Part shown: piece by piece, positions 932 to 18,670 of the stretch | How the letters are laid out: each line of letters opens with the position of its first letter | Numbering within the stretch: position 1 is the first letter of the stretch | NCBI GenBank assembly: GCA_037481875.1 | Contig: JBBFKY010000003.1 | Span: 55,235 to 119,234, forward strand | Direction of reading: 5' to 3' | Source: Desulfosoma sp. | GTDB taxonomy: Bacteria; Desulfobacterota; Syntrophobacteria; Syntrophobacterales; DSM-9756 | Length of the DNA stretch: 64,000 bases | Program-made: the position numbers and the translations under genes | Notes under the pieces: generated by a model | What the model was told of the DNA's origin: nothing | What the model saw: the letters and a program-made list of their open reading frames with translations, nothing else | Database searches by the model: none

Positions 932-3247
932 TTAAAGGCGAGCCGCAAAAAACTTGAGGGAAGGTTTGTCTTCGGAAAGACTGAGGCGTTCGGTTCCAGA
1001 CCCATCTTCTCGAATAGGCCAGCACCGTCCCTTTTTCCCCAAGGTATCATAGCGCAACGGAGCCATTTCCTTGACAAGCTGGACAGCCTCATCAAAGGCC
1101 TGGGCTCGATCCGCCGGGGCAAGATCGGCGTTTAAACGGCGAAGCAACCCTTGAATGAGATCGAAGTCCGCTCGTGCTTCGCCGGGAGGCGACATTACTA
1201 CGGACAGTTTTTGGATGCGCCGTTCGCAATTGACGGCGGTGCCTTCCTTTTCCATGAAGGCGGCTCCCGGTAGTACCACATGCGCGTAGTCACTCGCTCG
1301 GGTTTTGGCGCAATCCTGAACGATCAGGAGCTGCAGCTTGGCCAAGGCACTCTCCACGACCCGCTCCGGTAAGCCCAGATCAAAAGGATCTACGCCAACC
1401 AAGTATAAAGCCTTGAGATCTCCTTTCTCGATGGCTTCAAACATCTGGGGCCAGCTGAGGCCAGCCTCACCCGGGGGTTCCACACCCCACAGGTTGCTCA
1501 CCACCTTGCGGGCTGAGGCCTGGTTGACACTGCGGTAACCCGGCAGATACTTGGGCCAGGCCCCAAAATCCGCCGCTCCCTGAGCGTTTCCGGAAACACC
1601 GAGTGCCGCAAAACCCCCTCCCGTAATCCCTATGGAGCCCACGAGCATCTGCAGGGCCGCTCCCATACGATACAAGGCCTCGTTGGCGGGATCCTGGGCC
1701 ATGTCCGCACCGTAGATCAAAAACGCAGGTTTTCTGGAGGCGTAAAGCCGAGCGGCTTCTTGAATGTCCTGTTCCGTAAGGCCTGTGCGTTCCGCCACAT
1801 CCTGCAAACCGATCTTATCCAGGCTTCGTTCCAGTTTCTCGAATTCCAGCGTGTATTTTTCGACAAAAGCGGTATCATAGAGCTTTTCAGAAACAATGAC
1901 CTTTAGGAAACCACAAAGCAGACTGGATTCCGATCCCGGACGAATGGCCAGATGCCGTTCAGCGTTCTTAGTTAATCCAACACGATCCGGATGGGCCACG
2001 ATCATCACAGCGCCGTCACGCACCGCCTTTCTCGCTCGAAGCGCCGCGATGGCATGCTTTTCCAATGTATTGGATCCCAAGACCAGCAAGCTCTTGGCCA
2101 ATGCGATATCGTCCAGCGGATTGGTCATGGCTCCCCACCCAAGACTGCTGCTCAGCCCTTCATAAAGCGGCAGGTGCCATGGTCCGGCCAGATTGTCCAC
2201 ATTGTTGGTGCGCAAGGCTCCACGGGCCAGTTTCTGAAGCAGGTAATACTCCTCGTTGGTGAGCATGCCTCCCGCGAAAACTCCGACAGAGGCTCCTCCG
2301 TGCTTTTCAACAATTTCCGACAGCCTGCCCGCCGCCGCATCCAGAGCCTCGTCAACAGACTTGGGAACCTGCTCTCCGGAAGCTTCGCGCACCCACGCGT
2401 TGGTCAACCGATTGGGTGTGTTCACGAAATTGTAGTTGAAACGCCCTACCTTGCACAGGGCGCCCGTATTGGCCGGAGCCTCAAAGTCTCCGTGGACCGT
2501 AACCACCTTACCCTTGTACGTGTCATACACGGCGCCGCATCCCATGGGACACTGCAAGCAGATGGTCGCTCCCTTGTGCAATTCCCATGAACGCACTTCA
2601 TGACGGCCTGCTCGAAAGCCGATGGCATCGACGGGGCAAAAATCGGCACAATGTCCGCAGAATTCGCAGCCCGCATCCTGCAATGGCAATTCAAAAGCCG
2701 TGGAGATTCGCTGTTCAAAGCCGCGACCTACCTTGGTCCAGATATCGGCCCCTTGCACATCGTGACAGGCTCGAATGCATCGACGACATAAGACGCACTT
2801 GTTCATGTCGATATGCAGGTATGGATTGGGATCCGAATCCACAGGATGCTTGTGACGTTCTCCGGGATAGGCGTCCGGTTTCACACGATGCCGATAGGCC
2901 AGATCTTGCAATTCACACGCCCCTGTCGCCTGGCAGGTCATACAGGCGTTGGGATGATCCGAAAGAAGCAGTTCTAGAATGGTTTTGCGTGATTCCTGGA
3001 CTTTTTCAGAATCGGTTTCAATCACCATACCTTGCCGGGCTGGAAAGACACAGGCGGCCACCAGAGTCGACCATCCTCGCCGCACATCTTCCACGACACA
3101 GATACGGCAAGCCTCTTCCAGAGGCAGATAAGGATGATAACACAAAGTCGGGATATAGACCCCCGCCTTCTTCGCCGCATCCAGAATGGTCGCGCCTTCT
3201 TCCACCTGCACTTCTTGGCCATTGATCTTTAACGTGATCGTCGCCAT
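932..3247 (-). CDS. nuoG: NADH-quinone oxidoreductase subunit G (NuoG), iron-sulfur/molybdopterin-fold subunit
   Basis: This 771-residue subunit carries electrons from the NADH module towards the quinone arm of complex I. The N-terminal [2Fe-2S] ferredoxin domain has cysteines near residues 36-66 (CYHPY...ACRIC...AAC). It is followed by the His-Cys [4Fe-4S] segment HPNACMTC...CELQ and two ferredoxin clusters (CVLCRRCIRAC, CEFCGHCADFC). A fourth site (CLQCPMGC) begins a molybdopterin-oxidoreductase fold of about 500 residues. No Sec or Cys ligand for Mo is visible at the usual position, which fits NuoG rather than a formate dehydrogenase. It is the last gene of the nuo operon, 67 bases after the short NuoF-like gene. 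The ATG at 3247 follows GGGACGGGACAT. Confidence 0.93.
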   Translation of the reverse strand: MATITLKINGQEVQVEEGATILDAAKKAGVYIPTLCYHPYLPLEEACRICVVEDVRRGWSTLVAACVFPARQGMVIETDSEKVQESRKTILELLLSDHPNACMTCQATGACELQDLAYRHRVKPDAYPGERHKHPVDSDPNPYLHIDMNKCVLCRRCIRACHDVQGADIWTKVGRGFEQRISTAFELPLQDAGCEFCGHCADFCPVDAIGFRAGRHEVRSWELHKGATICLQCPMGCGAVYDTYKGKVVTVHGDFEAPANTGALCKVGRFNYNFVNTPNRLTNAWVREASGEQVPKSVDEALDAAAGRLSEIVEKHGGASVGVFAGGMLTNEEYYLLQKLARGALRTNNVDNLAGPWHLPLYEGLSSSLGWGAMTNPLDDIALAKSLLVLGSNTLEKHAIAALRARKAVRDGAVMIVAHPDRVGLTKNAERHLAIRPGSESSLLCGFLKVIVSEKLYDTAFVEKYTLEFEKLERSLDKIGLQDVAERTGLTEQDIQEAARLYASRKPAFLIYGADMAQDPANEALYRMGAALQMLVGSIGITGGGFAALGVSGNAQGAADFGAWPKYLPGYRSVNQASARKVVSNLWGVEPPGEAGLSWPQMFEAIEKGDLKALYLVGVDPFDLGLPERVVESALAKLQLLIVQDCAKTRASDYAHVVLPGAAFMEKEGTAVNCERRIQKLSVVMSPPGEARADFDLIQGLLRRLNADLAPADRAQAFDEAVQLVKEMAPLRYDTLGKKGRCWPIREDGSGTERLSLSEDKPSLKFFAARL

Positions 3248-3314: not shown

Positions 3315-4190
3315 TCACTTCGCTTTCTTCTTCTTTGGAGCCATACGCTCACGGAAAGCCTTCTTCTTTTGAATCTCCACCAACGCTTGGCAGACTCCGG
3401 CGCGGCATTCCTTTTTTTCGATGTGTTCCAAGAACTCGTCCCTGAAATAAGTGATGGCGCTCAGCACAGGCTTGGTGCTGGCCATGGCGAATTGGCAGTG
3501 TGGAGCGTAAATCATGGTCTCACACAGAATGCCTAACTGTTCCAAATCGTCCAAGGTTCCTTGACCGCCCACGATGCGATCCAGGCTTTCTTGCATGCGC
3601 TTGATACCCAAACGGCACGGCACACATTTGCCGCACGAAAGGCCTTCCTCAAAATCGAGGAAGTATTTAGCCACTTCCACCATGCATACCGAATCGTCAA
3701 TGGCGGCTAAAAGGCCGCTGAACCGGTCGTAAAGAAGATCCGTTCGGTAAGAACGATCGGGATTGATCGAAAGGTACGGAAAGAGAAGCCTTCCCTTGAG
3801 CAGCGTTTCTCGAACAACTTCCGATGCGGCCTTGGGAGGCACGCCAAGATAGAAAAACCCCTTTTGAGGAAACCCTAGAAAGGGTCCCTGCCGGCATGTT
3901 CCGGAACAGCCCGTCTTGGCTTCTCCAACCGAGATCTGCAGCCCATGCTCCGCCAGGGCTCTTTCTAAAGCTTCCTTCAACGCGCCGGCATCGCAGGAGC
4001 TTTCCCCTCGCGGAGCACACACGGTCACGCATGCTTTCTTGGATCCAGGATCGCAAAAGAGCCGCTCGCTCGCCGGGGTCTTTCGGTCCGCCTCTTGTGG
4101 CGTCGATACGGCAGGCTTCAGAACCCCTCGCACGCCGCTTCGGACCTTTTCCTGAATATCCTGTGTGAGATCTTTTAACCGTTCCAACAT
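3315..4190 (-). CDS. Short NuoF-like protein without the FMN/NADH domain
   Basis: About 291 residues from ATG 4190, preceded by AAGGATAGG; an in-frame TTG at 4232 abuts the nuoN stop but looks less likely. After a basic N-terminal stretch comes a thioredoxin-like [2Fe-2S] domain with four cysteines. The first pair is spaced CX7C instead of CX4C; the second is CSGTC. The protein then goes directly to the C-terminal NuoF [4Fe-4S] domain (SCGKCVPCRLGIKRM, and a later Cys in APHCQF). The Gly-rich FMN and NADH-binding parts of NuoF are absent; full NuoF in this operon is 617 residues. The tail is lysine-rich (PKKKKAK). It sits between nuoN and nuoG, so it is probably a complex partner, perhaps an electron-entry or docking subunit. 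That role is inference. Confidence 0.85.
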   Translation of the reverse strand: MLERLKDLTQDIQEKVRSGVRGVLKPAVSTPQEADRKTPASERLFCDPGSKKACVTVCAPRGESSCDAGALKEALERALAEHGLQISVGEAKTGCSGTCRQGPFLGFPQKGFFYLGVPPKAASEVVRETLLKGRLLFPYLSINPDRSYRTDLLYDRFSGLLAAIDDSVCMVEVAKYFLDFEEGLSCGKCVPCRLGIKRMQESLDRIVGGQGTLDDLEQLGILCETMIYAPHCQFAMASTKPVLSAITYFRDEFLEHIEKKECRAGVCQALVEIQKKKAFRERMAPKKKKAK

Positions 4191-4232: not shown

Positions 4233-5654
4233 TTACGGAAGCACCGCGACGGTCGCTTCCGCAAGAGCCACAAAGCGATCGGGAAAGATACCCACATACA
4301 CCATGGCGATCACCAGAGCCGCACTCATCACCCGTGTCCAGGTGTCTACGCGCACCGGCGGGTATTCTCGAACAGGCTCCAACAGATAGGCAGCCTTAAT
4401 GACGATAAGGTAGTAATAAAGGGATATGGTCGCGTTGATCATGCCAATAATGACCAGAAGCAGGTACCCCTTTTCCAGGGCCGCTGCGAAAACCAAGAAC
4501 TTACCGGTAAAACCGAGTGTCGGAGGAATGCCGGCCAACCCAAAGAGCGCCAACATGAGGGTCATGGCCAGCATGGGGGAACGCTTATGCAGTCCTGCCA
4601 ATTCCCTGATCTGCAGGTTATGCCCATCCGGGGCGACTCGAATGATCACCATAAAGCAGGCGAAGTTCATGACGAGATACGCCAAGGCGTAATACACGGC
4701 GCTGGAATACCCGCGCTGCGTCATGCACAAAATACCAATGAGCATGTAGCCGGCATGGGCGATACTGGAATAGGCCAATAGCCGTTTGATGTCCTTTTGA
4801 ACGATAGCGACCAAATTCCCAAAGGTCATGGAAAGAACCGAAAGGACAACGAGAATCTGTACCAGCAGTTCCGATTGTCCCGTGCTCATTCCCACAAACC
4901 GAATGACCATCGCAGCCGCAGCCATCTTGGACGCCGTAGCGATGTAGGTGGTCACCTGATTGGCTGCACCTTGGTACACGTCAGGTGCCCAGATATGGAA
5001 CGGGAATAAGGCCTGTTTGAAGAAAAACCCACCCAGAGCCAGCACCAAGCCCACCAAGGCCGCCGGTTGATGAAAAACACTGGGCAGTTTTTGCACAATA
5101 TCCACCACGTAAGTCGAATGAGTCACACCGAAAAGATAACTCATGCCAAAGATCATCAGCGCCGATGCCGTCGCTCCCACCATGAAATATTTGATCCCCG
5201 TTTCCACGTATTCATCGGCTCGATGGCGCATGGGAACCAGCAGATAGAGGGAATAGGATGAGAGTTCCAAAGCAATGTAGATGGTGAGCAACTCCACGGC
5301 GCTCACCAACATCATCATGGCCAGGGTGCAAATGGAAAGCAGGAAGTAAAATTCGCCGTGCTTTCTCGGCTCAATTCCCTGTAGTTCATTGCACACCAGA
5401 ATCACGAAAAACATTCCCATCGCCAGGAACACTTTGAAGACCTGGCTAAAGAGATCCACCCTGTAGGAGTCGAAAAACAGGAACCCCTCCATGCGGGCGC
5501 ATGCCACAGTCACCGCCAGCCCGATCCCCGCCAGAGGCACCGCCCAGCGGTAGAGACGCCTCGGGTCCGCTTTCTTCTCCAAAGAACAGATGAAAAACAC
5601 GGACGCCATGGCAACATAATACAATTCGGGGGTAAACAGGGTCCATTTCATCAT
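4233..5654 (-). CDS. nuoN: NADH-quinone oxidoreductase subunit N (NuoN)
   Basis: A 473-residue antiporter-like membrane subunit, hydrophobic throughout with about 14 predicted helices. The proton-antiporter core is recognisable in the segments [33 protein letters not shown] and [13 protein letters not shown], which carry the conserved Glu, Lys and His residues of the family. The length matches the family norm (about 470-490). A TTG six bases earlier is possible, but ATG 5654 is preferred. It follows nuoM by 22 bases and precedes the short NuoF-like gene. Confidence 0.95.
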
Positions 5655-5676
5655 GACCAAATCATCCCTCGTCTCG

Positions 5677-7164
5677 CTACAGGCTGTTCACAAAAGGAAT
5701 CACGGCACTTTGAATCACGTCCAGAATGAGCCTTGGGAACAGGCCGAAGAAAATCAGAATGCCCACCAAAATGATGCGCGGAGATGCCAAAAAGAGTGGC
5801 ACATCGGGGATGTATTCCCACTTGGGGTTTTTGTCCCCGTAGAAGGTCTTTTGCACCACCCGAAGCATAAAGAGAGCGCTGACCACGAGTCCGGAAACCG
5901 CCAAAATACCTCGCACGGGATATGTCTTCACGGCGGAAATGAACACCAAAAGCTCCGCCCAGAAGCTGCTCATGCAGGGAACTCCGATACCGCAAAAGGC
6001 CGCCAAGATGAAAAAGGCCGAAGCCTTCGGCATGGTCTTTGACAACCCACCCAGCTCAGGGATCATCTTGGTGTGCGTCTTGTCGTAGATGTAGCCCACG
6101 GCGGAGAAGAAGAGAGCGGTCATAATGCCGTGGGAAAACATTTGAAAAACGGCCCCATTGATCCCATCGACGGTCATGGTGGCCAGTCCGAGCCCCACGA
6201 TGCCCATGTGGGACACACTGGAATACCCGATCACATATTTCAGGTCGGTCTGAGCCAAGCCTACAAAGGCTCCATAAACGATGCCGATGGTGGCCAGCAG
6301 CGCCATGAGATCCGCCCAGTACACCAACCCTTCAGGACACAGGGTCATGCCCACGCGCAAAATACCGTAGGCCCCCAACTTCATGAGAACCCCGGCGTGG
6401 ATCATGCTCACCGCCGTGGGAGCCGCCACATGGCCCACCGGAGACCATGTATGGAACGGCCACACACCCGCTAGAATACCGAAACCGAGATAGAGCAGGA
6501 CAAAGGCGATGCGCTGCACCTGGACATCAAAGCCGAGTCTTTGAAGTTCAAAGAGGTCGAAAGTCGTGCCGCCGGCCACGGCCCATAGATAGAGGATCCC
6601 GGGAAGAATGAAAGCGCTTCCTGCAAGGAGGTACAGAGTCAGCTTCATGGCTCCGTATTCCTTGCGGGTACTGCCCCAGATGGCAATCAGCGGGTACATG
6701 GGAAAGAGCGAAACGTCGTACCAGACGAAGATGAAGAAGAGGTCCATGCTCATGAAGACGCCGTAGACCCCGGCCACCAGCAAGTAGGTGAGAGCGAAGT
6801 ACTCCTTGACGCGTTTGTCCAACTCCCACATGGTCAGAACGCCGGTAAAGAGCACCACAGCCGTGAGCAAGATCATGGGCACATTGATGCCGTCCGCCGC
6901 CAAGAAATAGTAAATCCCCAGGCTCTTGACCCACAGAACCCGTTCCACGAACTGCAACCCGCTTTTTTGAGGGTCGAAGGCCACATAGAGATACAGGCTG
7001 AGCACCAGTCCTACGGCGGCAAATCCTAAACTTACCTGCTTGACCAACGTGGGGCGGTCATCGGGAATGAACAGGATGACCACAAGCGCCAGCAGCGTGG
7101 AAAAGAGGATCGCCGACAGAATCGGAAACTGCGCAAATTCCATAGCTGTCATAAGCATGCCCAC
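5677..7164 (-). CDS. nuoM: NADH-quinone oxidoreductase subunit M (NuoM)
   Basis: A 495-residue proton-pumping membrane subunit. Family landmarks are [17 protein letters not shown] (with YDVSLFPM replacing the usual WEL/SLIPM), [30 protein letters not shown] and [14 protein letters not shown]. The start is uncertain: GTG 7164, ATG 7158 and ATG 7149 are in frame and none has a strong ribosome-binding site. Length is typical. It lies between nuoL and nuoN with short gaps. Confidence 0.95.
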
Positions 7165-7220
7165 TCGTGTCTATACGTTCCTATTCCTAAACATGCCCCC
7201 GTCGCCTTAGGTCGCCATGC

Positions 7221-9173
7221 TTACAAGGCAAACACCAAGACCAGGACACCCACGGCGGCCACCATGAGCACCAAGTTGTATTGAAGCATCCCTGACTGAA
7301 GGAAACTCACTGCACGGCCACCTCCGACCGTAAAGCGGCAAATACCGTCAATGCCCCCATCAATGACGCGACGATCGTTTCGCGTAAAGATGTTGGTGAA
7401 ACCGCAGTACACCAAAAGATCCAAGGCCTTGCGGTAAAAATGGTCCATGTACCAACGATTGGCGAAAAGGTTTTCCACGGCCGGAAATCTACGCAAGAAC
7501 CCCTCTTGAGTGGCCTTTTTCCAGCCGAATTCCAAGTAGGCGAAAAACACGCCACCTACAGCCAGAGTCACCGCCGTGATGAGAAGCATGTAATGACTCA
7601 GGCCGTGACCGCCGTGTTCCGCGGCTTCATGAGCATGGGAGACCGCGTCGTGACCTATGAGATAGGCCTGAAGTTCGTTTTGGAAAAAGCCCAAAACCAG
7701 TGTGATGGCGGCTAAAATCATGCACGGCCAGGCCATAGCCCAAAAAACATGCCCATGATGCCCGCCTCCATGATCGTTGGCATGCCCGTGGCCACCGCCA
7801 TGCCCTTCATGGTGCGAAGCCTCTTCAAAAGTCTGTCGCGGAAAAAGGATGAAGAAAATCAGGCGAAAACTGTAATAGGCGGTCATCAAAGCCCCAAGGA
7901 GGCCGGCTGCCAAAAAGATTTTGTTGGGATAGCCTGCAAGCACGCCAAGGATGGCTTCCTTGCTGAAAAATCCTGAGAAAGGAAAAATACCCGCCAAAGC
8001 CAGAGCCCCAACGGTCATGCAGACCATGGGAATGACCAGCTTGCGGCCACCTCCACGGCCGATTTCCCGCATGTCGTTGGTGTGGTATTCATGGATAAAT
8101 ATACCCGAGCAGAGGAACAATAGAGCCTTAAAACCGGCGTGGGTCGTCAGGTGAAAGACACCGGCAAAATAGCCGCCGGCCGCCAGGCTCATGACCATGA
8201 ACCCTAACTGGCTGACTGTGGAATAAGCCCACACCTGTTTGATATCGTAGGTGACAAATGCCATGGTGGATGCCAAAAGCGTCGTGATGGTACCGATAAC
8301 CAAGGCCACTGCCATGGCATCAGGGGATGCGGCAAAGAACGGAAAAATGCGACTCATGAGATACACACCGGCGGCAACCATGGTGGCCGAATGGAGCAGC
8401 GCACTGACCGGAGTTGGGCCTTCCATGGCATCCGGCAACCAGGTCAAGAGCGGAAACTGTGCGCTTTTTCCGATGACACCGCAAAAGATCAACAGCGCTG
8501 CCAAAGTGACCACCTGAGGATGAATGTCCCCCGCCTGAGCCGCGGCGTTCATGTTCAGAATACCCAGATCCCCAAACCCCAAAAGGACCGCGATAATGCC
8601 CAGGAAAAAGCCGATGTCTCCGAGTCGGGTCATGACAAAGGCCTTTTTGCCGGCCTGCGACGCGCTCCATTTTTCGTAGTAGTACCCAATCAACAAGTAG
8701 GAGGCGAGCCCCACCAATTCCCAGAAGATGTAGAGCTGCAGCATGCCTGGAGCGATGACCATGGTCATCATGGCCCAGGCAAAGAGCGATTGAAAAGCAT
8801 AGTACCGGCTGAAACCCGGATCCCCGTGCATGTAGCCGATGGAGTACACCTGCACCAGGAAGCTGATCACCGCCACAATGGTCAACATGAGAAGACTGAG
8901 GCGATCCAGAAGGAACCCAAAGGGAATGACCATATCGCTGGAAATGATCCATGCCCATTGGTAATCCACGGGCGCCGGTGCGTGACGCAAGGTGAGCAGC
9001 AGATACAGGGCGCTGCCTAAACACACCGTGATGGCGCTCACCGAAATGGCACACGAAACCTTTGGGTAGGCTCGAGTGAAAATCAGAATCACCGCCATGG
9101 ACAAAAACGGTAAGGTGGCACAGGCCAAAGCCGCGGTCAGAATCGGATCATGCGGTAGCCACATCATGGACAT
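7221..9173 (-). CDS. nuoL: NADH-quinone oxidoreductase subunit L (NuoL)
   Basis: A 650-residue antiporter-like subunit, the distal proton pump of complex I. It has the typical segments FWELVGLASYLLIGYYYE, KAFVMTRLGDIGF, PLLTWLPDAMEGPTPVSALLHSATMVAAG, VWAYSTVSQLGFM and HAGFKALLFLCSG. A cytoplasmic/periplasmic loop near residues 445-475 is strikingly rich in His and Gly (HHEGHGGGHGHANDHGGGHHGH), a feature seen in some NuoL homologues and possibly metal binding. ATG 9173 has AAGGA very close; ATG 9167 would have better spacing. Confidence 0.95.
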   Translation of the reverse strand: MSMMWLPHDPILTAALACATLPFLSMAVILIFTRAYPKVSCAISVSAITVCLGSALYLLLTLRHAPAPVDYQWAWIISSDMVIPFGFLLDRLSLLMLTIVAVISFLVQVYSIGYMHGDPGFSRYYAFQSLFAWAMMTMVIAPGMLQLYIFWELVGLASYLLIGYYYEKWSASQAGKKAFVMTRLGDIGFFLGIIAVLLGFGDLGILNMNAAAQAGDIHPQVVTLAALLIFCGVIGKSAQFPLLTWLPDAMEGPTPVSALLHSATMVAAGVYLMSRIFPFFAASPDAMAVALVIGTITTLLASTMAFVTYDIKQVWAYSTVSQLGFMVMSLAAGGYFAGVFHLTTHAGFKALLFLCSGIFIHEYHTNDMREIGRGGGRKLVIPMVCMTVGALALAGIFPFSGFFSKEAILGVLAGYPNKIFLAAGLLGALMTAYYSFRLIFFILFPRQTFEEASHHEGHGGGHGHANDHGGGHHGHVFWAMAWPCMILAAITLVLGFFQNELQAYLIGHDAVSHAHEAAEHGGHGLSHYMLLITAVTLAVGGVFFAYLEFGWKKATQEGFLRRFPAVENLFANRWYMDHFYRKALDLLVYCGFTNIFTRNDRRVIDGGIDGICRFTVGGGRAVSFLQSGMLQYNLVLMVAAVGVLVLVFAL

Positions 9174-9233
9174 CGTCCTTCACACGCTGAAGTTACAGAT
9201 GACAAGCACACCCACACCATGACGCGTCGGCTC

Positions 9234-9542
9234 TCAGCCGCGCAGCCGCTGGGCCCGCTCGATATTGATGGAGCGCAGCCTGCGGAAAAGCGCCAAGATA
9301 ATGCTTAAGCCGATGGCCGCTTCCGCCGCCGCGATGCCCATGACAAACAGGGCCACGATCTGCCCCACAGCCGGCTCCGGTGCCAGGAAGCGGTTAAAGG
9401 CCATAAAATTAAGGTTTGCGCCGTTGAGCATGAGTTCGATGGAAATCAACATGCCGATGAGGTTTCGGCGCATGAGCACTCCGAAGAGTCCCAGGCTGAA
9501 AAGCGCCGCCGCGACGATTAAATAGACGCTGAGCGAATTCAC
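9234..9542 (-). CDS. nuoK: NADH-quinone oxidoreductase subunit K (NuoK)
   Basis: A 102-residue three-helix membrane subunit. The conserved acidic residues are in ISIELMLNGANLNF and the second helix in GIAAAEAAIGLSI, as in the family. Its start overlaps the nuoJ stop by four bases (ATGA), indicating translational coupling. Confidence 0.96.
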   Translation of the reverse strand: MNSLSVYLIVAAALFSLGLFGVLMRRNLIGMLISIELMLNGANLNFMAFNRFLAPEPAVGQIVALFVMGIAAAEAAIGLSIILALFRRLRSINIERAQRLRG

Positions 9543-10066
9543 GAAGACAACCTCCGGCTGAATCCTGTGGTCACAATGGCGCCAATGATGGCCACCAGCA
9601 ATACCAGGGAGATGATTTCAAAAACCAGGGCATAACGCGTCAACAGCAGATGGCCGATGGTGGCGACGGACCAGTCGGCTCCACGTTCCGCCGCCGGTTT
9701 CCACGCCGTTTTCCAAGCCACGGCGCTGACGGCCACAAAAAAGATGGAAGCGGCTCCGATGCCAGCTGCCAATTTGGGCATGCGTCTCTTGGGCACTTCC
9801 AGATGCAGGGGGCGTGAAAGCATAATGGCAAAAACGATGGCGATACAGATGGCCCCCACGTAGATCAGAAGCTGCATCAAAGCGAGGAAGAAACTGCCCA
9901 AATAGAGAAAAAGCGCAGCCACACCCGTTAAGCATAAAATGAGGCCCAAAACATTGTAGACAATGTTTCGAGGAAAAACCGCCAGAGCGGCCCCTCCAAA
10001 GACAAGACCCACGACCACCCAAAAGACGGCTTGGGCTAAGCTCTCAACGACGAAGCTTCCGCTCAT
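9539..10066 (-). CDS. nuoJ: NADH-quinone oxidoreductase subunit J (NuoJ)
   Basis: A 175-residue membrane subunit with five predicted helices. The conserved stretch LLIYVGAICIAIVFAIML is present and gives the pi-bulge helix region. I chose ATG 10066 because it overlaps the nuoI stop (ATGA); the longer frame upstream reads through nuoI in another phase. Confidence 0.93.
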   Translation of the reverse strand: MSGSFVVESLAQAVFWVVVGLVFGGAALAVFPRNIVYNVLGLILCLTGVAALFLYLGSFFLALMQLLIYVGAICIAIVFAIMLSRPLHLEVPKRRMPKLAAGIGAASIFFVAVSAVAWKTAWKPAAERGADWSVATIGHLLLTRYALVFEIISLVLLVAIIGAIVTTGFSRRLSS

Positions 10067-10503
10067 GATCGGCTTTCCTCCATCCTCAGGACCAAGTCCA
10101 CCACGCCGTCCCACCGGGAATCACTCGCAAGCTCATACTCCGTAGAAAACTTAAGGGTCTGGGTGGGGCAGCTTTCCACACATAGCCCGCACAGGCTGCA
10201 GCGCGTGTAGTCAATCACGTAATGGGTGGCGATTTTGCCGCTGCGGGCATGCGCTTTCACCCCCTGGACCTTGATCACGTGTGACGGGCATACCCTCTGG
10301 CATGTTCCACAGGCAATACAGCCGTGGGTTCCCGTTTCCGGAAAAACTTTCAATTCGATATGCCCACGGTAGGCCGGGGACATCTCCAGGTGCCTTCGAG
10401 GGTACTGCACCGTGACCACGGGCTTGAACAAGGCTCGGCCCGTGACCTTCATCCCTTCGATGAGGCTCCAGCCTCCCAGCACGATGTCTTTCCAGTATCC
10501 CAT
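10063..10503 (-). CDS. nuoI: NADH-quinone oxidoreductase subunit I (NuoI), 2[4Fe-4S] protein
   Basis: A 146-residue hydrophilic subunit that binds the two [4Fe-4S] clusters feeding the terminal cluster in NuoB. The motifs are CIACGTCQRVCP and CSLCGLCVESCP. The N-terminus (YWKDIVLGGWSLIEGM) is the amphipathic helix that rests on the membrane arm. It follows nuoH by 61 bases, and its stop overlaps nuoJ. Confidence 0.95.
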   Translation of the reverse strand: MGYWKDIVLGGWSLIEGMKVTGRALFKPVVTVQYPRRHLEMSPAYRGHIELKVFPETGTHGCIACGTCQRVCPSHVIKVQGVKAHARSGKIATHYVIDYTRCSLCGLCVESCPTQTLKFSTEYELASDSRWDGVVDLVLRMEESRS

Positions 10504-10564
10504 AGCCGCCCTTTTACTCCGCTTATGCCTTTAACGTCAGCCGTTCCGAGAGCCGTCGATGCCC

Positions 10565-11554
10565 TTAGACAAACTTGAGCACCAAGGCTGTTATCACCAA
10601 ATTGAGCATGCTGAGGGGAATGAGCACTTTCCAGGAAAAGTTCATGAGCTGATCAAATCGAACGCGTGGAAAAGTCCATCGAAACCACATGAGCACAAAG
10701 AGAAGCACGTAGGTCTTCGCCAGGAACCAGACCACTCCGGGAATCTTGAAACTGAACCCAAAGGGCCCATGCCACCCACCGAAAAAGAGGCTTGTGGCTA
10801 CGGCGCACACGATGAACATGTTGGTGTATTCAGCAAGGAAAAAGAGTCCGAAACGCATGCCGCTGTATTCCGTATGAAACCCGGCCACCAGCTCCGATTC
10901 CGCTTCGGGAATGTCAAAGGGTGCACGGTTGGTTTCGGCTGTGGCGCAGATAAAGTAAATAAGGGCCGCTACCGGCTGTAAGAACACGAACCATACACGT
11001 TGTTGTGCCATGACCAATTCGCTGAATCGAAAAGAATTGACCATGATCACCACACTCATGACCGACAGCAGCAATGGAATCTCATAGGCCACAGCCTGCG
11101 CCACCGAACGAATGGCTCCCAAAAGGGCATACTTATTGTTGGAAGCCCAGCCCCCGACGAGAATCGCCAGAACACTGAAGGTGGAAAAGGCAAAGATGAG
11201 CAGCAATCCCACATTCATGTCGCGAATGATGAGGTCCGGCCCAAAAGGAAGAACAAGAAAGGCCACCAGTACCGGCATGAAAACCAACACCGGCGCGATG
11301 ACAAAGAGTTTTCGGTCCGCCCGCGCCGGCGTGATCAGCTCTTTGCCCACCAGCTTGATGCCGTCCACGATGGTTTGAAGCAAACCGTGTGGGCCCACTT
11401 CCATGGGACCCAACCGAACCTGAATATGACCGGCCACTTTCCGTTCCAGCCAGACGAGAAAGAGGGCATTGAGCTGGCTGAAAATCAGCACGACGACCAG
11501 ACCGATAATGAGTCTCAGCCAGTAGGCACCCGAAGTTGCGGCGGCTTCCATCAT
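10565..11554 (-). CDS. nuoH: NADH-quinone oxidoreductase subunit H (NuoH)
   Basis: A 329-residue membrane subunit that joins the peripheral arm to the membrane arm and forms much of the quinone chamber. Signature segments are [25 protein letters not shown] and the acidic quinone-site loop [21 protein letters not shown] 11554 is preceded by AAGGAG at about 11 bases. An 80-base gap separates it from nuoD. Confidence 0.96.
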
Positions 11555-11633
11555 GACACAACGATCTCCTTCCAGGGGTTGGTGCGGTCCGTCACTTCCT
11601 GAAGACGGGCCTCATTCACGCTCCAGGAGACTT

Positions 11634-12755
11634 TCAACGATCAATTTCCGGGACCACAATGTCGATACTACCCAAAATGGCGATGGCATCGGCCACAAGG
11701 GTTTCCTTTAAAACCGCGGTCAAGCAATGAAGGTTTCCAAAACTGGGCACTCGCACATGCACCCGATAGGGATAAGCGCTGCCATCGCTTACCAGATAAT
11801 AAGCCGTCTGGCCACGGGCACTTTCAAAGGCAAAATACACCTCACCTCGAGGCGGTGTGACTTTCAGTCGAACACGTTCCTGACGATAGGGTCCGTCCGG
11901 AAGTTGGTCCAAAGCCTGCTCAATGATACGGCAGCTCTGTTCCATTTCTTCCAGCCGCACGCGATACCGATCCAGAGCGTCCCCTTTGGTTCCCGTAGGG
12001 ATTTCAAAGTCAAACCTGTCGTAGACTTCGTAGGGTTCCACCTTGCGCATGTCAAAAGGGATCCCGGCCGCTCGAAGGTTGGGACCGGTGACACCGAAAC
12101 GACGGGCGAGATCCTTGTCGATAATGCCCACATCCCGAACACGGTGAATAAAAATGACGTTTTTGCTCACCAGGTTGTGATAATCCGGCCACCGGCTTCG
12201 CAGTCTCTTAATAAAAGCCCGCGTCTGATCGATGAACACCTCATCCACGTCGCGGGCCACTCCACCGAACCGGCAGTAACTGTACGTCAAGCGAGAACCA
12301 CTGACTCGGTCCAAAATGTCCAGAATGTTTTCGCGGTCGTCGAAACAATAGAGAAACGGCGTGAAGGCACCCAAGTCCATAAGAAAGGTGCCGAACCACA
12401 AAAGATGACTGGAAATGCGGTTCAGTTCGGCACAGATCACCCGAATGTACTTGGCCCGTTCCGGAGGCTCGATCCCCGCCAGCTTTTCTACGGCAAGACA
12501 AAAGCCGTGGTTGTAGAGCAGCCCCGAAAGGTAGTCCATGCGGCTGGAGTTGGGCATGAATTGAAGATAGGTGCGGTTTTCTCCCATCTTTTCATGGCCT
12601 CGATGCCCATAGCCGATGATAGGATCCGCCTCCAGAATGTATTCCCCATCCAGGGTAAGAAGCACCCGCAAGACCCCGTGCGTGCTCGGGTGCTGAGGCC
12701 CCAGGTTCAGACTGTAGAGCTGCTGCTGGACCGGTTGAGGAAACTGTTCAGCCAT
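11634..12755 (-). CDS. nuoD: NADH-quinone oxidoreductase subunit D (NuoD)
   Basis: A 373-residue, 49-kDa-type subunit forming the quinone-reduction site with NuoB. Typical motifs are LNLGPQHPSTHGVLRV, GYGHRGHEKM near the N-terminus, and HVRVPSFGNLHCL and the C-terminal GSIDIVVPEIDR. The ATG at 12755 overlaps the end of nuoC by eight bases; the longer upstream frame is nuoC read out of phase. NuoC and NuoD are separate here, not fused as in E. coli. Confidence 0.96.
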   Translation of the reverse strand: MAEQFPQPVQQQLYSLNLGPQHPSTHGVLRVLLTLDGEYILEADPIIGYGHRGHEKMGENRTYLQFMPNSSRMDYLSGLLYNHGFCLAVEKLAGIEPPERAKYIRVICAELNRISSHLLWFGTFLMDLGAFTPFLYCFDDRENILDILDRVSGSRLTYSYCRFGGVARDVDEVFIDQTRAFIKRLRSRWPDYHNLVSKNVIFIHRVRDVGIIDKDLARRFGVTGPNLRAAGIPFDMRKVEPYEVYDRFDFEIPTGTKGDALDRYRVRLEEMEQSCRIIEQALDQLPDGPYRQERVRLKVTPPRGEVYFAFESARGQTAYYLVSDGSAYPYRVHVRVPSFGNLHCLTAVLKETLVADAIAILGSIDIVVPEIDR

Positions 12756-13221
12756 AAACCTCTTCCCGTTTACGGTAAGCGTGAACCTTGCCGAAATTCT
12801 TGCGAAGCGGATAAAAGTCCGCGTCTTCCGGAAGCAGAAGCCGCCTGAGGTCCGGGTGGCCGCTGAAGCGCACACCGAAAAATTCCCAGGCTTCGCGTTC
12901 CTGCCACAACGCCGAATCAAAAAGCCCCGTCACCGAAGGGACTTCACCGTCATGCGGGCACAAAAGCCTAACCGCCATGCGGGACCTCGGCTCGTAAGTG
13001 TTCATGTGGTAAACCAGCTCCAAAGTGTCCTGAAAATCCAACCCGGTCAAAGATTCCATATAAAAGCCGCATTCGTTGAAAATCTTCATGACCGGAACGA
13101 GGGATTCCTTGGCACATGACACGGTCCAGGAAATGCCCGCTCGAAAATCGGGATCCTCCTTGAGGGCCGTTTCCCCCAGAAGTTCTCGAAGGCGCCGCAC
13201 CGCTTCGTCTTTTGCCGCCAT
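12748..13221 (-). CDS. nuoC: NADH-quinone oxidoreductase subunit C (NuoC)
   Basis: A 157-residue, 30-kDa-type subunit of the peripheral arm. The C-terminal signature is clear: WQEREAWEFFGVRFSGHPDLRRLLLPEDA. The start ATG 13221 lies two bases after the nuoB stop. The family usually has an extra basic C-terminal tail; here it ends soon after the signature, so this is a compact version. Confidence 0.94.
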   Translation of the reverse strand: MAAKDEAVRRLRELLGETALKEDPDFRAGISWTVSCAKESLVPVMKIFNECGFYMESLTGLDFQDTLELVYHMNTYEPRSRMAVRLLCPHDGEVPSVTGLFDSALWQEREAWEFFGVRFSGHPDLRRLLLPEDADFYPLRKNFGKVHAYRKREEVYG

Positions 13222-13223
13222 GA

Positions 13224-13739
13224 TCAACTCACCTTTTCCAATCGTCGAAAACGGCGCAACAGATTGCGCTTTTCCCCTTTGGTGATCTTGTCTTCCAAAG
13301 CCAGAATGCCCTGAATAAGCCCTTCGGGTCTGGGCGGGCACCCCGGAACGTGAATGTCTACCGGCACAATGAGGTCCGCTCCGGGCACAATGGCGTACTG
13401 ACCGTCGTATTCAAAGGGACCTCCGGAAATGGCACAGTTCCCCATGGCAATACACCATTTGGGATTCGGCATCTGATCCCAAAGCATCTGGATGGCCGGC
13501 GCCATCTTCTTGGAAATCGTCCCCGCCACGATCATCACATCCGATTGACGCGGCGACGGCCGGAACACACCCGCACCGAATCGGTCCAAGTCAAACCGAG
13601 ACGCCCCCGCCGCCATCATTTCAATGGCACAGCATGCCAACCCGAAGGTCATGGGCCAAAGAGAATTGGCCCGCGCCAGATTAAGAAGGTCGTCCAGCAG
13701 GGCGAACTGGATTACCGGCTCTCCTCTTTGGTTTTCCAC
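13224..13739 (-). CDS. nuoB: NADH-quinone oxidoreductase subunit B (NuoB), terminal [4Fe-4S] cluster N2
   Basis: A 171-residue subunit carrying the last iron-sulfur cluster before quinone. The tandem-cysteine motif [10 protein letters not shown] and the later cysteines in MGNCAISGG and [11 protein letters not shown] are all present. Translation starts at GTG 13739, preceded by AAGGAG seven bases upstream, so the gene overlaps the end of nuoA by 28 bases. Confidence 0.96.
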
Positions 13740-14101
13740 TCAAACACTCCTTTTCGCCACGCGTAGACAATCGCCAGAGACAAAATGCCCAAAAAGATCA
13801 CCACTTCGACGAAATCCCGAAAAGCATACTGGCCGTAGGCCAAAGTCACCGGAAAGAGGTAGAGAACATCCACGTCAAAAGCCAAGAAAATGAGTGCGTA
13901 GATGTAATAGGCTGCTGTGAACTGAATCCAGGCACTTCCAATGGTTTCCATACCGCTTTCATAGGTCTCGTCACGGCGAGGTCCCTTGCTGCGCGGCACG
14001 ATGAGGTGGGAGATGATGATCGGAATAACCGCGAACACCACCCCGACCAGTAGATAAAAGGCGATGGCCAGAAAATCTCCAAGCAGGGCTTTCGGTACCA
14101 T
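13712..14101 (-). CDS. nuoA: NADH-quinone oxidoreductase subunit A (NuoA)
   Basis: A 129-residue membrane subunit with three helices. Conserved stretches are [19 protein letters not shown] and [13 protein letters not shown], which carry the acidic residues of the family. ATG 14101 has GAGGGG five bases upstream; an in-frame GTG lies at 14107. It follows nuoF by 11 bases. Confidence 0.95.
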
Positions 14102-14112
14102 AAACACCCCTC

Positions 14113-15966
14113 TTATTCGATGTAGATCGCCTTGAACTTGCAGGTTTCAATGCAGATTCCGCACCGAACGCACAGTTCCTCATCAATCACGTGGCATTCC
14201 TTATTGACGCCAATAATGGCGTTTTCCGGACACCGACGTCGGCAAGCTCCACATCCGGTGCATTTGTCCATATCGATGATATATTGAATCAAAGGCTTGC
14301 AGATCTTGGCCGAACATTTTTTGTCATAAACGTGGGCTTCGTATTCGTCGCGAAAATATCTCAGCGTGCTGAGCACCGGATTGGGAGCGCTTTTGCCAAG
14401 GCCGCACAAGGCTGTTTCTTCAATAGCATGGCAGAGTTCTTCCAGTTTGGTCAGGTGTTCCGGAGTCCCACGCCCCTCGCACATATCCACGACGAGCTCA
14501 TGCATGCGCTTCACACCCACACGGCACGGAATGCACTTGCCGCACGATTCCTCCACAAGGAAGTTCAAAAAGTATCGGGCCACATCGACCATACACGTGG
14601 CTTCATCCATGACGATCATGCCGCCGGAGCCCATCATGGAACCGGCTTCCTTGAGCCTTTCGAAATCGACGGGAAGATCGATGAGTCGCTCCGGCACACA
14701 GCCTCCCGAGGGCCCCCCCGTCTGAACGGCTTTGAACTTTCGACCCCCTGGAATGCCCCCCCCGATGTCTTCGATAATGGTACGCAGCGGCGTCCCCATG
14801 GCCACTTCCACAAGGCCCGTGTTGTTGATCTTTCCCACCAAAGAAAAAATCTTCGTTCCTTTGCTGCGCTCTGTGCCGATGGAAGCGTACCAGGCCCCAC
14901 CATTGTTGATGATAAGAGGTACATTGGCCCACGTTTCCACGTTGTTGAGGTTGCTCGGGCGATTCCACAGACCCTTTTCGACGGTGTGAATGTGTTTGCC
15001 TCGAGGCTCCCCGATCTTTCCTTCCAAGGAAGCCATGAGCGCCGTCGATTCACCGCAGATGAAGGCTCCGGCCCCTCGGTTCACGTGAATGTCCAGGCTG
15101 AAATCGGTCCCCAAAATATTTTCGCCTAAAAGGCCGTATTCCTTGGCCTGTTGAATGGCCCAAATGGCATTCTCCACGGCCATGGGATATTCAAACCGAA
15201 CGTAGATGTAGCCTTCCCTGGCTCCGATGGCGTAACCCCCAATGATCATACCTTCCAGCACCTGGTGGGGATTGCCTTCGAGAAGGGAACGGTCCATGTA
15301 AGCGCCAGGGTCGCCTTCGTCGGCGTTGCACATCACGTACTTAATGTCTCCATGAGCTCGACGACATGATTCCCATTTCACTCCCGTAGGAAAGCCTCCG
15401 CCACCTCGACCGCGCAAACCGGAAATTTTCACCTCCTCGATGACCTGTTCCGGGGTCATGGAAGAGAGCGCCTTGGCCAAGGCGGAATAGCCGCCCCGAG
15501 AGATGTAGTCCTCAATGTCCCGTGTGAAATTGCTTCCGGTATCCTTGAAGACGATTCGTTGCTGCTTGGCAAAAAAAGGAATTTCGTATTCGTGAACGAT
15601 ACGGTTTCCCGTCGTGGGATCCACGTACAGAAGGTCTTCGATGACCTCGCCGCCAAGAACACTGCGTTCGACGATCTCCAAAACCCGATCGGCCTTGACC
15701 TTCTGGTAAAAAACCTCTTCAGGTTCAATGACCACAATGGGTCCCGCGGCACAAAAGCCGTTGCACCCGGTGGGAACCACCATGTATTCGCGCGTCAGTC
15801 CCTTCTCTGAGAGAACCTTCTCAAAGGCGTCCACCAGTTTCTGGCTTCCTTGAGAATGACACCCCGTGCCATTGCACACGCGAATCCGCTTACGAATGTG
15901 CTTGCGCTTTTCCAGGATCTGCTGCCGCAACGCGTCCAGATCTTGAATGCTTGTGAGCCGCTTCAT
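14113..15966 (-). CDS. nuoF: NADH-binding subunit NuoF, extended HndC/HoxF-type
   Basis: A 617-residue FMN flavoprotein that oxidises NADH. Order of domains: thioredoxin-like [2Fe-2S] domain (CNGTGCHSQG, CNGFCAAGP; residues ~30-100), the FMN/NADH domain (GRGGGGFPTG; CNADEGDPGAYMDRSL; GAGAFICGE; residues ~165-430), the N3-type [4Fe-4S] domain (ESCGKCIPCRVG), and two C-terminal ferredoxin clusters (CTGCGACRRRCP, CVRCGICIETC). The C-terminal ferredoxin and N-terminal thioredoxin-like domains are absent from E. coli NuoF and typical of NADP-reducing and bifurcating hydrogenase subunits. It follows nuoE by 10 bases. Confidence 0.95.
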   Translation of the reverse strand: MKRLTSIQDLDALRQQILEKRKHIRKRIRVCNGTGCHSQGSQKLVDAFEKVLSEKGLTREYMVVPTGCNGFCAAGPIVVIEPEEVFYQKVKADRVLEIVERSVLGGEVIEDLLYVDPTTGNRIVHEYEIPFFAKQQRIVFKDTGSNFTRDIEDYISRGGYSALAKALSSMTPEQVIEEVKISGLRGRGGGGFPTGVKWESCRRAHGDIKYVMCNADEGDPGAYMDRSLLEGNPHQVLEGMIIGGYAIGAREGYIYVRFEYPMAVENAIWAIQQAKEYGLLGENILGTDFSLDIHVNRGAGAFICGESTALMASLEGKIGEPRGKHIHTVEKGLWNRPSNLNNVETWANVPLIINNGGAWYASIGTERSKGTKIFSLVGKINNTGLVEVAMGTPLRTIIEDIGGGIPGGRKFKAVQTGGPSGGCVPERLIDLPVDFERLKEAGSMMGSGGMIVMDEATCMVDVARYFLNFLVEESCGKCIPCRVGVKRMHELVVDMCEGRGTPEHLTKLEELCHAIEETALCGLGKSAPNPVLSTLRYFRDEYEAHVYDKKCSAKICKPLIQYIIDMDKCTGCGACRRRCPENAIIGVNKECHVIDEELCVRCGICIETCKFKAIYIE

Positions 15967-16447: not shown

Positions 16448-16786
16448 ACGAGGAAGCCTCCACACATCCTGTCGCCGGGGCCGATCCATGCGGGAACAAA
16501 AGACAACACCCCCTAAGGGTACGTGATTTTTTGCACAACGTGTCCCTGTAGGTCAAGGAAAAAATTGTGCATGCACAGGAGCGGCCCCCGTTCATAAAAC
16601 TTTCTGTGCTTTGTCTCCTACGGCCCACAGTCTTACCGAAGCCGACACCTTTAGACCTTGCAAGGAAAAGCATGTCCGAGAACGGGTTTTTCCCTGAAAC
16701 CACGCCCCTTACGCCCACTAGACGGGCGCCCCGGAGGTCTTGGGTTTTAGAAAAACCGTGATCCGCTCTCATTGCTCAACAACCTT
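16448..16786 (-). promoter_or_regulatory. Leader/promoter region of the nuo operon
   Basis: 339 bases without a gene between the kinase gene and nuoE, the likely site of the nuo promoter. On the minus strand a TTGACC sits near 16552-16557. A perfect 12-base palindrome TGTGCATGCACA is at 16566-16577, and a related half-site (TTGCACA) lies near 16533. These could be operator sites; I cannot assign a regulator. Confidence 0.35.
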
Positions 16787-17911
16787 CTAAGGGTTCGGGT
16801 TGAATCCATCGCCATCGGCTCGAGCCGCATTGAGCGTCAGAGAAAACACGGAACCTTTCCCCTTTTCGCTGGTAACCGCGAGGGTGCCTCCATGGGCCCG
16901 CACCACCTTCTGTGCGATGGTCAAGCCGAGACCTGTCCCCTGTTGCGCTCGAATCTCCCGATCCTTTCCTCGATAAAACTGGTGAAAAATAAAAGGGATT
17001 TCCTTAGCATCGATGCCGAGTCCCGTATCTTCCACGGTCACCAACACACACGATCCTTGAGGTTTCGCCTCTATGACCACGCGGCCGCCTTCGCGGTTGT
17101 ACTTGATGGCGTTGGCCACCAGGTTGCTGAGAGCTTCGCGCAAAGAGTCGGCATCCGCATGGACCAGGGGAAGATCCTTGGAGAGATTCACCTCCAGAGT
17201 GACCTTCTTTTCTTTGGCCGCCCATTCCAAACCCTTGAGGGCTGAATCCACGCAAGCGGCCAAGGAGGTGGGTTGCAGCCTTTTGACGATTTCCCCTTCG
17301 CTCAAGCGGCTCATGTCGAGCCAATCATTGATGAGCTGCATCAAGGATTCCAGGCGTTCCTTGGCCCGGCTGAGCATTTCCCGTTGAGCTTCACTCAGGT
17401 CACCTCCAATGCCACCTAAAAGCACTTCGAAGTACTGCAGTATGGCCGCCAGCGGAGAACGCAATTGATGTGTGACCATGGTGACGAAATTGCGTTCCAT
17501 GGCCTCTTTTTCTTCACGCAGGGCTCGAGATTCCAGGTCCAGACGACGTTTTTCCAGACCTCGGCGCACCACGATGAGAAGCTCTTCCGGCGTGAAGGGT
17601 TTGGGAAGGTAATCGTACGCTCCTTCTTTGACAGCCGCGACGGCGCTTTCGATGGTGGCGTAACCGGTAATCAGCACCGTTACGATGCTCGGGTCAAATT
17701 CTCGAATGCGACGCACCACCTCGACCCCGTCCATTTCCGGCATCTTCAGATCCACAAGCACAAGGTCGCAGGGATCGCATAAAAGTTTTTCCAGCCCTTC
17801 CCGGCCGCTGGAGGCCAGGCTCACCTGCATGCCTTCTCGAGCCAACACGCGTCGGCATGAGACACGGGCGATTTCCTCATCATCGATGACCAGAATCTTT
17901 GGAGCATCCAC
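16787..17911 (-). CDS. Hybrid response regulator-histidine kinase
   Basis: A 374-residue cytoplasmic signalling protein. An N-terminal receiver domain (ILVIDDEE; phospho-acceptor Asp about 54 in LVDLKMPEMDG; Lys in YLPKPF) is linked by a short helix to HisKA (H-box THQLRSPLAAI, His about 148) and a HATPase_c domain (NLVANAIKYN, DTGLGI, GTGLGL). No membrane segment or input sensor is visible, so the receiver is the likely input. The chosen start is GTG 17911, where homology begins; the frame is open upstream to 18088 without recognisable sequence. It lies 339 bases upstream of nuoE on the same strand and downstream of a lone receiver gene. Confidence 0.9.
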   Translation of the reverse strand: MDAPKILVIDDEEIARVSCRRVLAREGMQVSLASSGREGLEKLLCDPCDLVLVDLKMPEMDGVEVVRRIREFDPSIVTVLITGYATIESAVAAVKEGAYDYLPKPFTPEELLIVVRRGLEKRRLDLESRALREEKEAMERNFVTMVTHQLRSPLAAILQYFEVLLGGIGGDLSEAQREMLSRAKERLESLMQLINDWLDMSRLSEGEIVKRLQPTSLAACVDSALKGLEWAAKEKKVTLEVNLSKDLPLVHADADSLREALSNLVANAIKYNREGGRVVIEAKPQGSCVLVTVEDTGLGIDAKEIPFIFHQFYRGKDREIRAQQGTGLGLTIAQKVVRAHGGTLAVTSEKGKGSVFSLTLNAARADGDGFNPNP

Positions 17912-18091
17912 GAAAGAGCGCCTTTGTCGATGGTCTTTCACGGGCCGGAAAGACCATCGTGAACATGATCCGGTCAACACGTTGCATTGAAGGCTCGGTA
18001 AGCCCCCAAGAGCACCGCCGAAAGGCAAAGACGTCTGTAGCCGTTGCCTCGCGGGGCACTCATAGTCCATCGAAACCCGTCTTCGCAAGTG

Positions 18092-18514
18092 CTAAGAAGA
18101 CCGGCGCCGGGCCAACAGTTCAGCAATACGGTCCAGGAGCTCTTTGGGCTTAAAAGGCTTGTCCAGGTAGTCGTCGGGTTCGGACAGGGATCCCATGTCC
18201 TCCGCGTCGTCAAAAGCGAAACGCGACCCCGTGTCCGCCCGAACACTGGACACCATCAAAATGGGAATGTGCTTGAAGGCCGACAGCTGAGGATCCGAGC
18301 GCAGGCTGCTCACCAGGCTGAAACCTTCAAAGATGCTTTCCATCATGATGTCCAGAATGATCAGATCAGGCTTTTCCTCTTGAACCTTTCGAAGACCTTC
18401 CTTGCCGTCCGAAGCCCAGATGACGTCATAGCCGTCGGCAAGCAAGATCATCTTGGTCGATTTAGCGAAATCCGCATCGTCATCCACAATGAGAATCTTT
18501 GCCTTAGTCGCCAT
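18092..18514 (-). CDS. Single-domain response regulator (receiver only)
   Basis: 140 residues from ATG 18514, preceded by GGAGGAAGAGCTC. It has the receiver hallmarks: acidic pair in ILIVDDDAD, phospho-acceptor Asp about 55 in LIILDIMME, and Lys in YLDKPFKP. A loop of about 12 residues (GSRFAFDDAEDMGS) is inserted before the last strand. No DNA-binding or output domain is present. It probably exchanges phosphate with the adjacent kinase. Confidence 0.9.
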   Translation of the reverse strand: MATKAKILIVDDDADFAKSTKMILLADGYDVIWASDGKEGLRKVQEEKPDLIILDIMMESIFEGFSLVSSLRSDPQLSAFKHIPILMVSSVRADTGSRFAFDDAEDMGSLSEPDDYLDKPFKPKELLDRIAELLARRRSS

Positions 18515-18670
18515 GAGCTCTTCCTCCAGCCTTTCAGGCCTTTCACCTCGGGAAGGGTGGCACACGCACATGTGAAATGATTCGTGAACTTACCGGATCG
18601 CCCCTTGTCTGTCAATGGAATATGGGCTAGTTTGTCCTGGTCTTTACCCTTGGGTTTTTTGAAGCCCACC

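Follow-up and report, generated by a model that had tools for sequence, protein, structure and literature searches.

The closest described relatives of the gene analyzed here are NuoF proteins of the HydB/BfuB type. BfuB of A. mobile is described as containing FMN, a [4Fe-4S] center B1, a [2Fe-2S] center B2 (C438, C476 or Thr, H525, C531, and C536), the C-terminal centers B3 and B4, and B5 in a thioredoxin-like domain (PMC9304861). This thioredoxin-like domain marks the HydB/BfuB type, and E. coli NuoF is without the motif (PMC11238625). Nuo-Bfu, a complex I predicted to use BfuABC as its input module, has been described with 14 subunits, and the available part of that description makes no mention of an extra flavin-less subunit (Schut et al. 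2022, PMC9304861). For 11-subunit complex I-like enzymes of strict anaerobes such as D. hafniense, additional unknown subunits have been raised as a possibility (PMC11238625).

We analyzed a complex I operon in a 64,000-nucleotide stretch of Desulfosoma sp. DNA (the window). It reads nuoE-F-A-B-C-D-H-I-J-K-L-M-N-SHORT-G from position 16489 down to 932 on the minus strand, with SHORT denoting a flavin-less gene related to NuoF and BfuB. A first-pass annotation had placed such a gene between nuoN and nuoG, and an open reading frame of 291 aa is indeed found there. The operon contains the following features.

932-3247, minus strand: nuoG, BfuA-like, with a molybdopterin-type fold in which the formate dehydrogenase catalytic Cys/Sec is replaced by Trp
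3315-4190, minus strand: SHORT, flavin-less NuoF/BfuB-like gene, 291 aa (open reading frame, Pfam, phmmer to HydB, orthologs, purifying selection)
3390-3686, minus strand: putative B2 site of SHORT, residues C169, H256, C262, and C267 (alignment to 7t2r_B and conservation; HydB ligands from PMC9304861)
3423-3677, minus strand: NADH_4Fe-4S domain of SHORT, N3/B1-type [4Fe-4S], ligands C186, C189, C192, and C232 (Pfam, AlphaFold2, Foldseek)
3720-3755, minus strand: short linker of about 12 residues (146-157), where HydB has its FMN/NADH and SLBB domains
3756-4034, minus strand: thioredoxin-like [2Fe-2S] domain of SHORT, residues 53-145, ligand candidates C58, C66, C95, and C99 (phmmer, hhalign, AlphaFold2, Foldseek)
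4233-5660, minus strand: nuoN (open reading frame, relatives)
5677-14107, minus strand: nuoA-D and nuoH-M, between nuoF and nuoN (open reading frames, order conserved in relatives)
14113-15966, minus strand: nuoF, full HydB/BfuB type, with FMN domain, two C-terminal [4Fe-4S] motifs, and the B2 motif residues
15977-16489, minus strand: nuoE, BfuC-like (Pfam)

The same operon had been said to encode a complete NuoF with C-terminal ferredoxin clusters, in agreement with the Pfam matches of nuoF (Complex1_51K, SLBB, NADH_4Fe-4S, 2Fe-2S_thioredx, and two C-terminal Fer4). With an FMN domain, B1, B2, B5, and two C-terminal [4Fe-4S] motifs in NuoF, together with NuoE and a BfuA-like NuoG, the window complex would by its motifs be of the Nuo-Bfu kind, with NuoEFG of BfuCBA type. 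Directly upstream of nuoE (16787-18571, minus strand) are a receiver-histidine kinase hybrid and a receiver-only gene. A hybrid kinase is also found upstream of nuoE in two relatives (G001 and G027), and a receiver gene lies near the nuoE-F-SHORT-G cluster of a third (G036). The window's genome contains a second nuoL/M/N-like cluster (L065:222-7838), which adjoins a formate dehydrogenase with an in-frame TGA and resembles a formate hydrogenlyase-type complex.

SHORT starts with an ATG at 4190, preceded by an AAGGA ribosome site, and its stop codon occupies 3315-3317. Its sole Pfam match is NADH_4Fe-4S (PF10589, residues 172-256, E 2.3e-24), with no match to Complex1_51K or SLBB, and TIGR01959 reaches 71 bits against a cut-off of 558, so that SHORT does not classify as an FMN/NADH-type NuoF/Nqo1. 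Among solved structures, its top phmmer match is HydB of A. mobile (7t2r_B, E 3.9e-40), which aligns in two stretches (residues 52-145 and 158-272) on either side of the absent flavin part. The Pfam result and these flanking stretches bear out the earlier description of a protein that keeps the NuoF [4Fe-4S] domain and misses the FMN/NADH domain. SHORT thus shares with canonical NuoF/Nqo1 an N3-type [4Fe-4S] domain with four cysteines but has no FMN or NADH domain and carries an added thioredoxin-like domain. Its likeness to HydB/BfuB (A. mobile HydABCSL, 7t2r; BfuABC family, PMC9304861) extends to the B5 and B1 domains and to four of the five B2 ligand positions, the fifth being V207 in the alignment to 7t2r_B, with about 40-54% identity over residues 158-272. 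Unlike HydB/BfuB, it is without the FMN/NADH, SLBB, and B3/B4 parts, and in the window it accompanies a full NuoF rather than replacing it.

The N-terminal domain and the C-terminal half of SHORT were modeled from separate alignments. The AlphaFold2 model of the N-terminal domain (pLDDT 80) matches HydB chains, FeSI, and the A. aeolicus (Aquifex) thioredoxin-like ferredoxin in Foldseek, and hhalign relates this domain to the HydB N-terminal domains with 99.4% probability. The C-terminal half is predicted with a pLDDT of about 90-98 and superposes on HydB at 1.1-1.6 A (Foldseek); the N-terminal part of this second model rests on no alignment and was left uninterpreted. Six cysteines are found in the N-terminal part of the window protein (46, 54, 58, 66, 95, and 99), with 46 and 54 conserved in the nearer families only. 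The other four correspond to the previously noted four-cysteine thioredoxin-like motif with CX7C spacing. This spacing is real in the window protein, where position 64 is Ser, whereas most relatives have an extra Cys there. Most simply, SHORT would represent a HydB/BfuB-type NuoF that has lost its FMN/NADH, SLBB, and C-terminal ferredoxin domains.

A derivation by domain loss would also fit a second NuoF in decay, from which the middle domain was recently lost. We found SHORT orthologs in 36 of the 60 nearest genomes, counting the window's own; the others show 38-81% identity. A phylum-wide sample of 395 genomes yielded orthologs in 19, with two further families (f15 and f21) represented. The orthologs are spread over several Desulfobacterota families at the same locus. 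None of those found in the 60 nearest and 395 phylum-sampled genomes has a flavin domain in place, and a full-length second NuoF at the position of SHORT, which the first-pass annotation had named as a sign of decay, is seen in no relative. In an unrooted tree of 35 SHORT and 56 full-length HydB/NuoF rows (217 shared columns), all 35 SHORT rows lie on one side of a branch with 100/99 support and a length of 0.62. SHORT is under purifying selection, with a dN/dS of 0.05-0.08 against two congeners, at saturated dS. The architecture common to all orthologs, the long single branch, and the low dN/dS rule out a recent NuoF duplicate in decay for practical purposes, leaving it a negligible probability.

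Within the SHORT side of the tree, rows from the window's order that have nuoE, nuoF, and nuoG (EFG) are nested, with 96/91 support, inside EFG-less rows; branching here is less sure because the four f21 rows are long and of odd composition. The nesting suggests that SHORT was present in an 11-subunit operon first, with E, F, and G added around it later. On this unrooted tree, SHORT most likely belonged to the 11-subunit operon before E, F, and G came, and the reverse order, with SHORT joining a complete 14-subunit complex, is improbable.

Outside Desulfobacterota, searches run without a positive control returned no SHORT ortholog in 251 genomes around Dehalococcoidia, 237 around Myxococcales, and 6 around a KSB1 record, and the single match in 198 genomes around a Nitrospirae record, again without a positive control, was a full-length 609-aa frame. 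No SHORT relative was found in viral contigs. A pattern scan of genome contigs gave full-length HydB/NuoF only, the patterns matching the common NuoF [4Fe-4S] motif. Several orthologs (L040:4134-5777, L042:8241-10205, L043:4548-6065, L044:1539-2966, and L049:9463-10968), all in operons without nuoEFG, have long low-complexity Glu/Ala/Pro-rich tails ending in lysines.

We inspected gene order at about 37 SHORT loci, a comparison across Desulfobacterota that had been suggested at the outset. SHORT directly follows nuoN at every locus with visible neighbors, except in G036 and G193, where the order is nuoE-nuoF-SHORT-nuoG. The window's arrangement, E-F-[A-N]-SHORT-G, is found in its family and in G011, G027, and G037, and G022, G029, and G033 agree with it as far as their contigs extend. 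In about 19 genomes, SHORT follows an 11-subunit nuoA-N operon lacking nuoEFG. This [A-N]-SHORT order is present in G013, G015, G017, G031, the inspected f5 and f6 members, f15 (G064, G101, and G136), and G399, with partial agreement in G035, G039, and G053. Three genomes (G142, G170, and G222) have [A-N]-SHORT followed by a NuoG-GltD fusion of 1171-1255 aa. G193 has the order N-E-F-SHORT-G and a NuoF that carries a fused GltD-like part of its own, and in G036 an E-F-SHORT-G cluster stands apart from A-N. A rearrangement has split the operon of G046, with SHORT still beside nuoN. Close relatives in genus g13 have [A-N] with neither SHORT nor EFG. Wherever the contig includes the upstream side of a nuoG of the window's type (at least 58% identity), SHORT adjoins that nuoG. 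A single in-frame TGA near residue 170 interrupts the nuoG of G006 (L032:2156-4486) and may reflect an assembly error, recoding, or gene breakage.

The hybrid histidine kinase and receiver gene upstream of nuoE could point to a soluble redox protein, a sensor, or a maturation factor that is merely co-transcribed with nuo. Such a role is very unlikely given the constant place of SHORT by nuoN or between nuoF and nuoG, across several families and rearrangements. This constancy, together with the lack of a flavin domain in any ortholog, upholds the earlier view of a specialized subunit, and the accompanying idea of a docking subunit fits the gene-order survey well. The roughly 19 SHORT-carrying relatives with a nuoA-N core and no nuoEFG resemble the D. 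hafniense-type 11-subunit enzymes (PMC11238625) and differ from them in one added cluster-motif gene directly after nuoN.

The NuoG-GltD fusions (about 1170-1255 aa) combine 2Fe-2S, FAD/NAD(P)H, 4Fe-4S, and molybdopterin-type domains (Pfam Fer2_4, Fer4_20, Pyr_redox_2, Fer4, and Molybdopterin), and in some families they are encoded divergently from or directly after complex I operons. Examples are L051:6161-9871, L172:14616-18335, and L186:8462-12091, the last of which lies in the same genome as the window. In f5, a related 1236-aa gene is divergent from and adjoins nuoA (L051, L052, L053, and L195). The formate dehydrogenase Cys/Sec is absent from the f5 proteins and from the fusions that follow [A-N]-SHORT. 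In the f15 version an in-frame TGA occupies the catalytic position, and this protein may be no more than a formate dehydrogenase. Fusions occur in many SHORT carriers and in 0 of 6 SHORT-less g13 relatives tested. A strict link was not found, the fusion not always being near SHORT or present.

We compared the putative metal ligands among SHORT orthologs. In the G031 protein (L049:9463-10968), precisely the four B1 [4Fe-4S] cysteines are gone and those of the thioredoxin domain are kept. The G039 protein (L060:1041-1940) shows the reverse, with precisely the four thioredoxin-domain cysteines gone and those of the [4Fe-4S] site kept, and the proteins of G013 and G015 are missing precisely the four B2 residues and retain the other ligands. 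Loss of one entire ligand set at a time is evidence for three distinct metal sites, and as each set is lost in some lineage, no single cluster appears to be needed everywhere. All losses are confined to EFG-less operons. Every EFG-bearing row retains all three sites, suggesting that the metal sites of SHORT probably matter most where a BfuABC-type NuoEFG is present. Persistence of the gene after loss of whole ligand sets would be expected from a structural docking or assembly subunit, in which clusters, or zinc in the case of the B2 site, would serve just to stabilize the fold. The long low-complexity tails of some orthologs are in line with such a function, as is the faster evolution of SHORT compared with NuoF and NuoN (81% versus 95-97% identity to the same relative). 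A purely structural function would, however, not require every ligand set to be complete in all nuoEFG-bearing operons, and we regard it as unlikely, though worth retaining.

Cyanobacterial NDH-1 has ferredoxin-docking subunits such as NdhS. SHORT may resemble them in role, as an extra subunit that opens an 11-subunit core to a further electron donor, and differs in having cluster motifs and a NuoF-type fold. Ferredoxin, or another low-potential carrier, might reduce the [2Fe-2S] site of SHORT, with electrons moving via the [4Fe-4S] site to the core; in the window this port would complement the NADH route, and in nuoEFG-less operons it would be the sole one. In the approximately 19 genomes, no candidate input subunit other than SHORT is encoded beside the 11-subunit complex, and 11-subunit complexes of strict anaerobes have been proposed to take electrons from ferredoxin, possibly via unknown extra subunits (PMC11238625). 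However, SHORT is without the HydB C-terminal clusters B3/B4, the ferredoxin path proposed in PMC9304861; the [4Fe-4S] ligands are lost in G031 and the [2Fe-2S] ligands in G039, both in EFG-less operons; and related 11-subunit operons manage without SHORT. The extra electron port suggested in the first-pass annotation is conceivable mainly in the many operons without nuoEFG. A ferredoxin port is a rather improbable function for SHORT, on a par with the structural one.

We favor, at a probability of about 0.45, the interpretation that SHORT is a conserved, putatively cluster-bearing adaptor subunit of the Desulfobacterota complex I peripheral arm, which derives from a HydB/BfuB-type NuoF and couples interchangeable input modules to the core. 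SHORT would sit where the A-N core meets the cell's own input module, that is, the BfuABC-type NuoEFG in the window, the NuoG-GltD flavoprotein in others, and possibly ferredoxin. Electrons would pass via its [4Fe-4S] and [2Fe-2S] sites. Membership of SHORT in the complex, cluster binding, the electron-transfer partner, and the direction of transfer are predicted here from sequence. An adaptor accounts for most of our data, given that the input genes vary around an unchanging core with SHORT and that in G036 SHORT has remained with E-F-G. Against it stand the loss of each ligand set in some lineage, the nuo operons without SHORT in the close relatives of genus g13, and the NuoG-GltD fusion, which is not always near or present and whose f15 version may be a formate dehydrogenase.

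In a full-text search restricted to open-licence papers, and hence weak evidence of absence, we found no description of a SHORT-like complex I subunit. A Nuo complex without nuoG has been reported from a genome of Desulfobacterota (PMC13101534) and is perhaps a similar case. SHORT is apparently a complex I subunit not described before, with different input modules swapped around it. More tentatively, complex I may here have a fifteenth, cluster-bearing subunit that was in the 11-subunit complex ahead of the NADH module and forms a socket into which different input modules can fit. If this holds, SHORT would record an intermediate step in the gain of the NADH module by complex I in this lineage. 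How electrons enter an 11-subunit complex I without an NADH module in strict anaerobes is an open question, for which SHORT represents a concrete candidate for the missing link, as a conserved cluster-motif subunit beside the core in lineages with and without NuoEFG. The gene-order series, from core plus SHORT to the addition of either NuoG-GltD or NuoEFG, offers a comparative view of input-module exchange.
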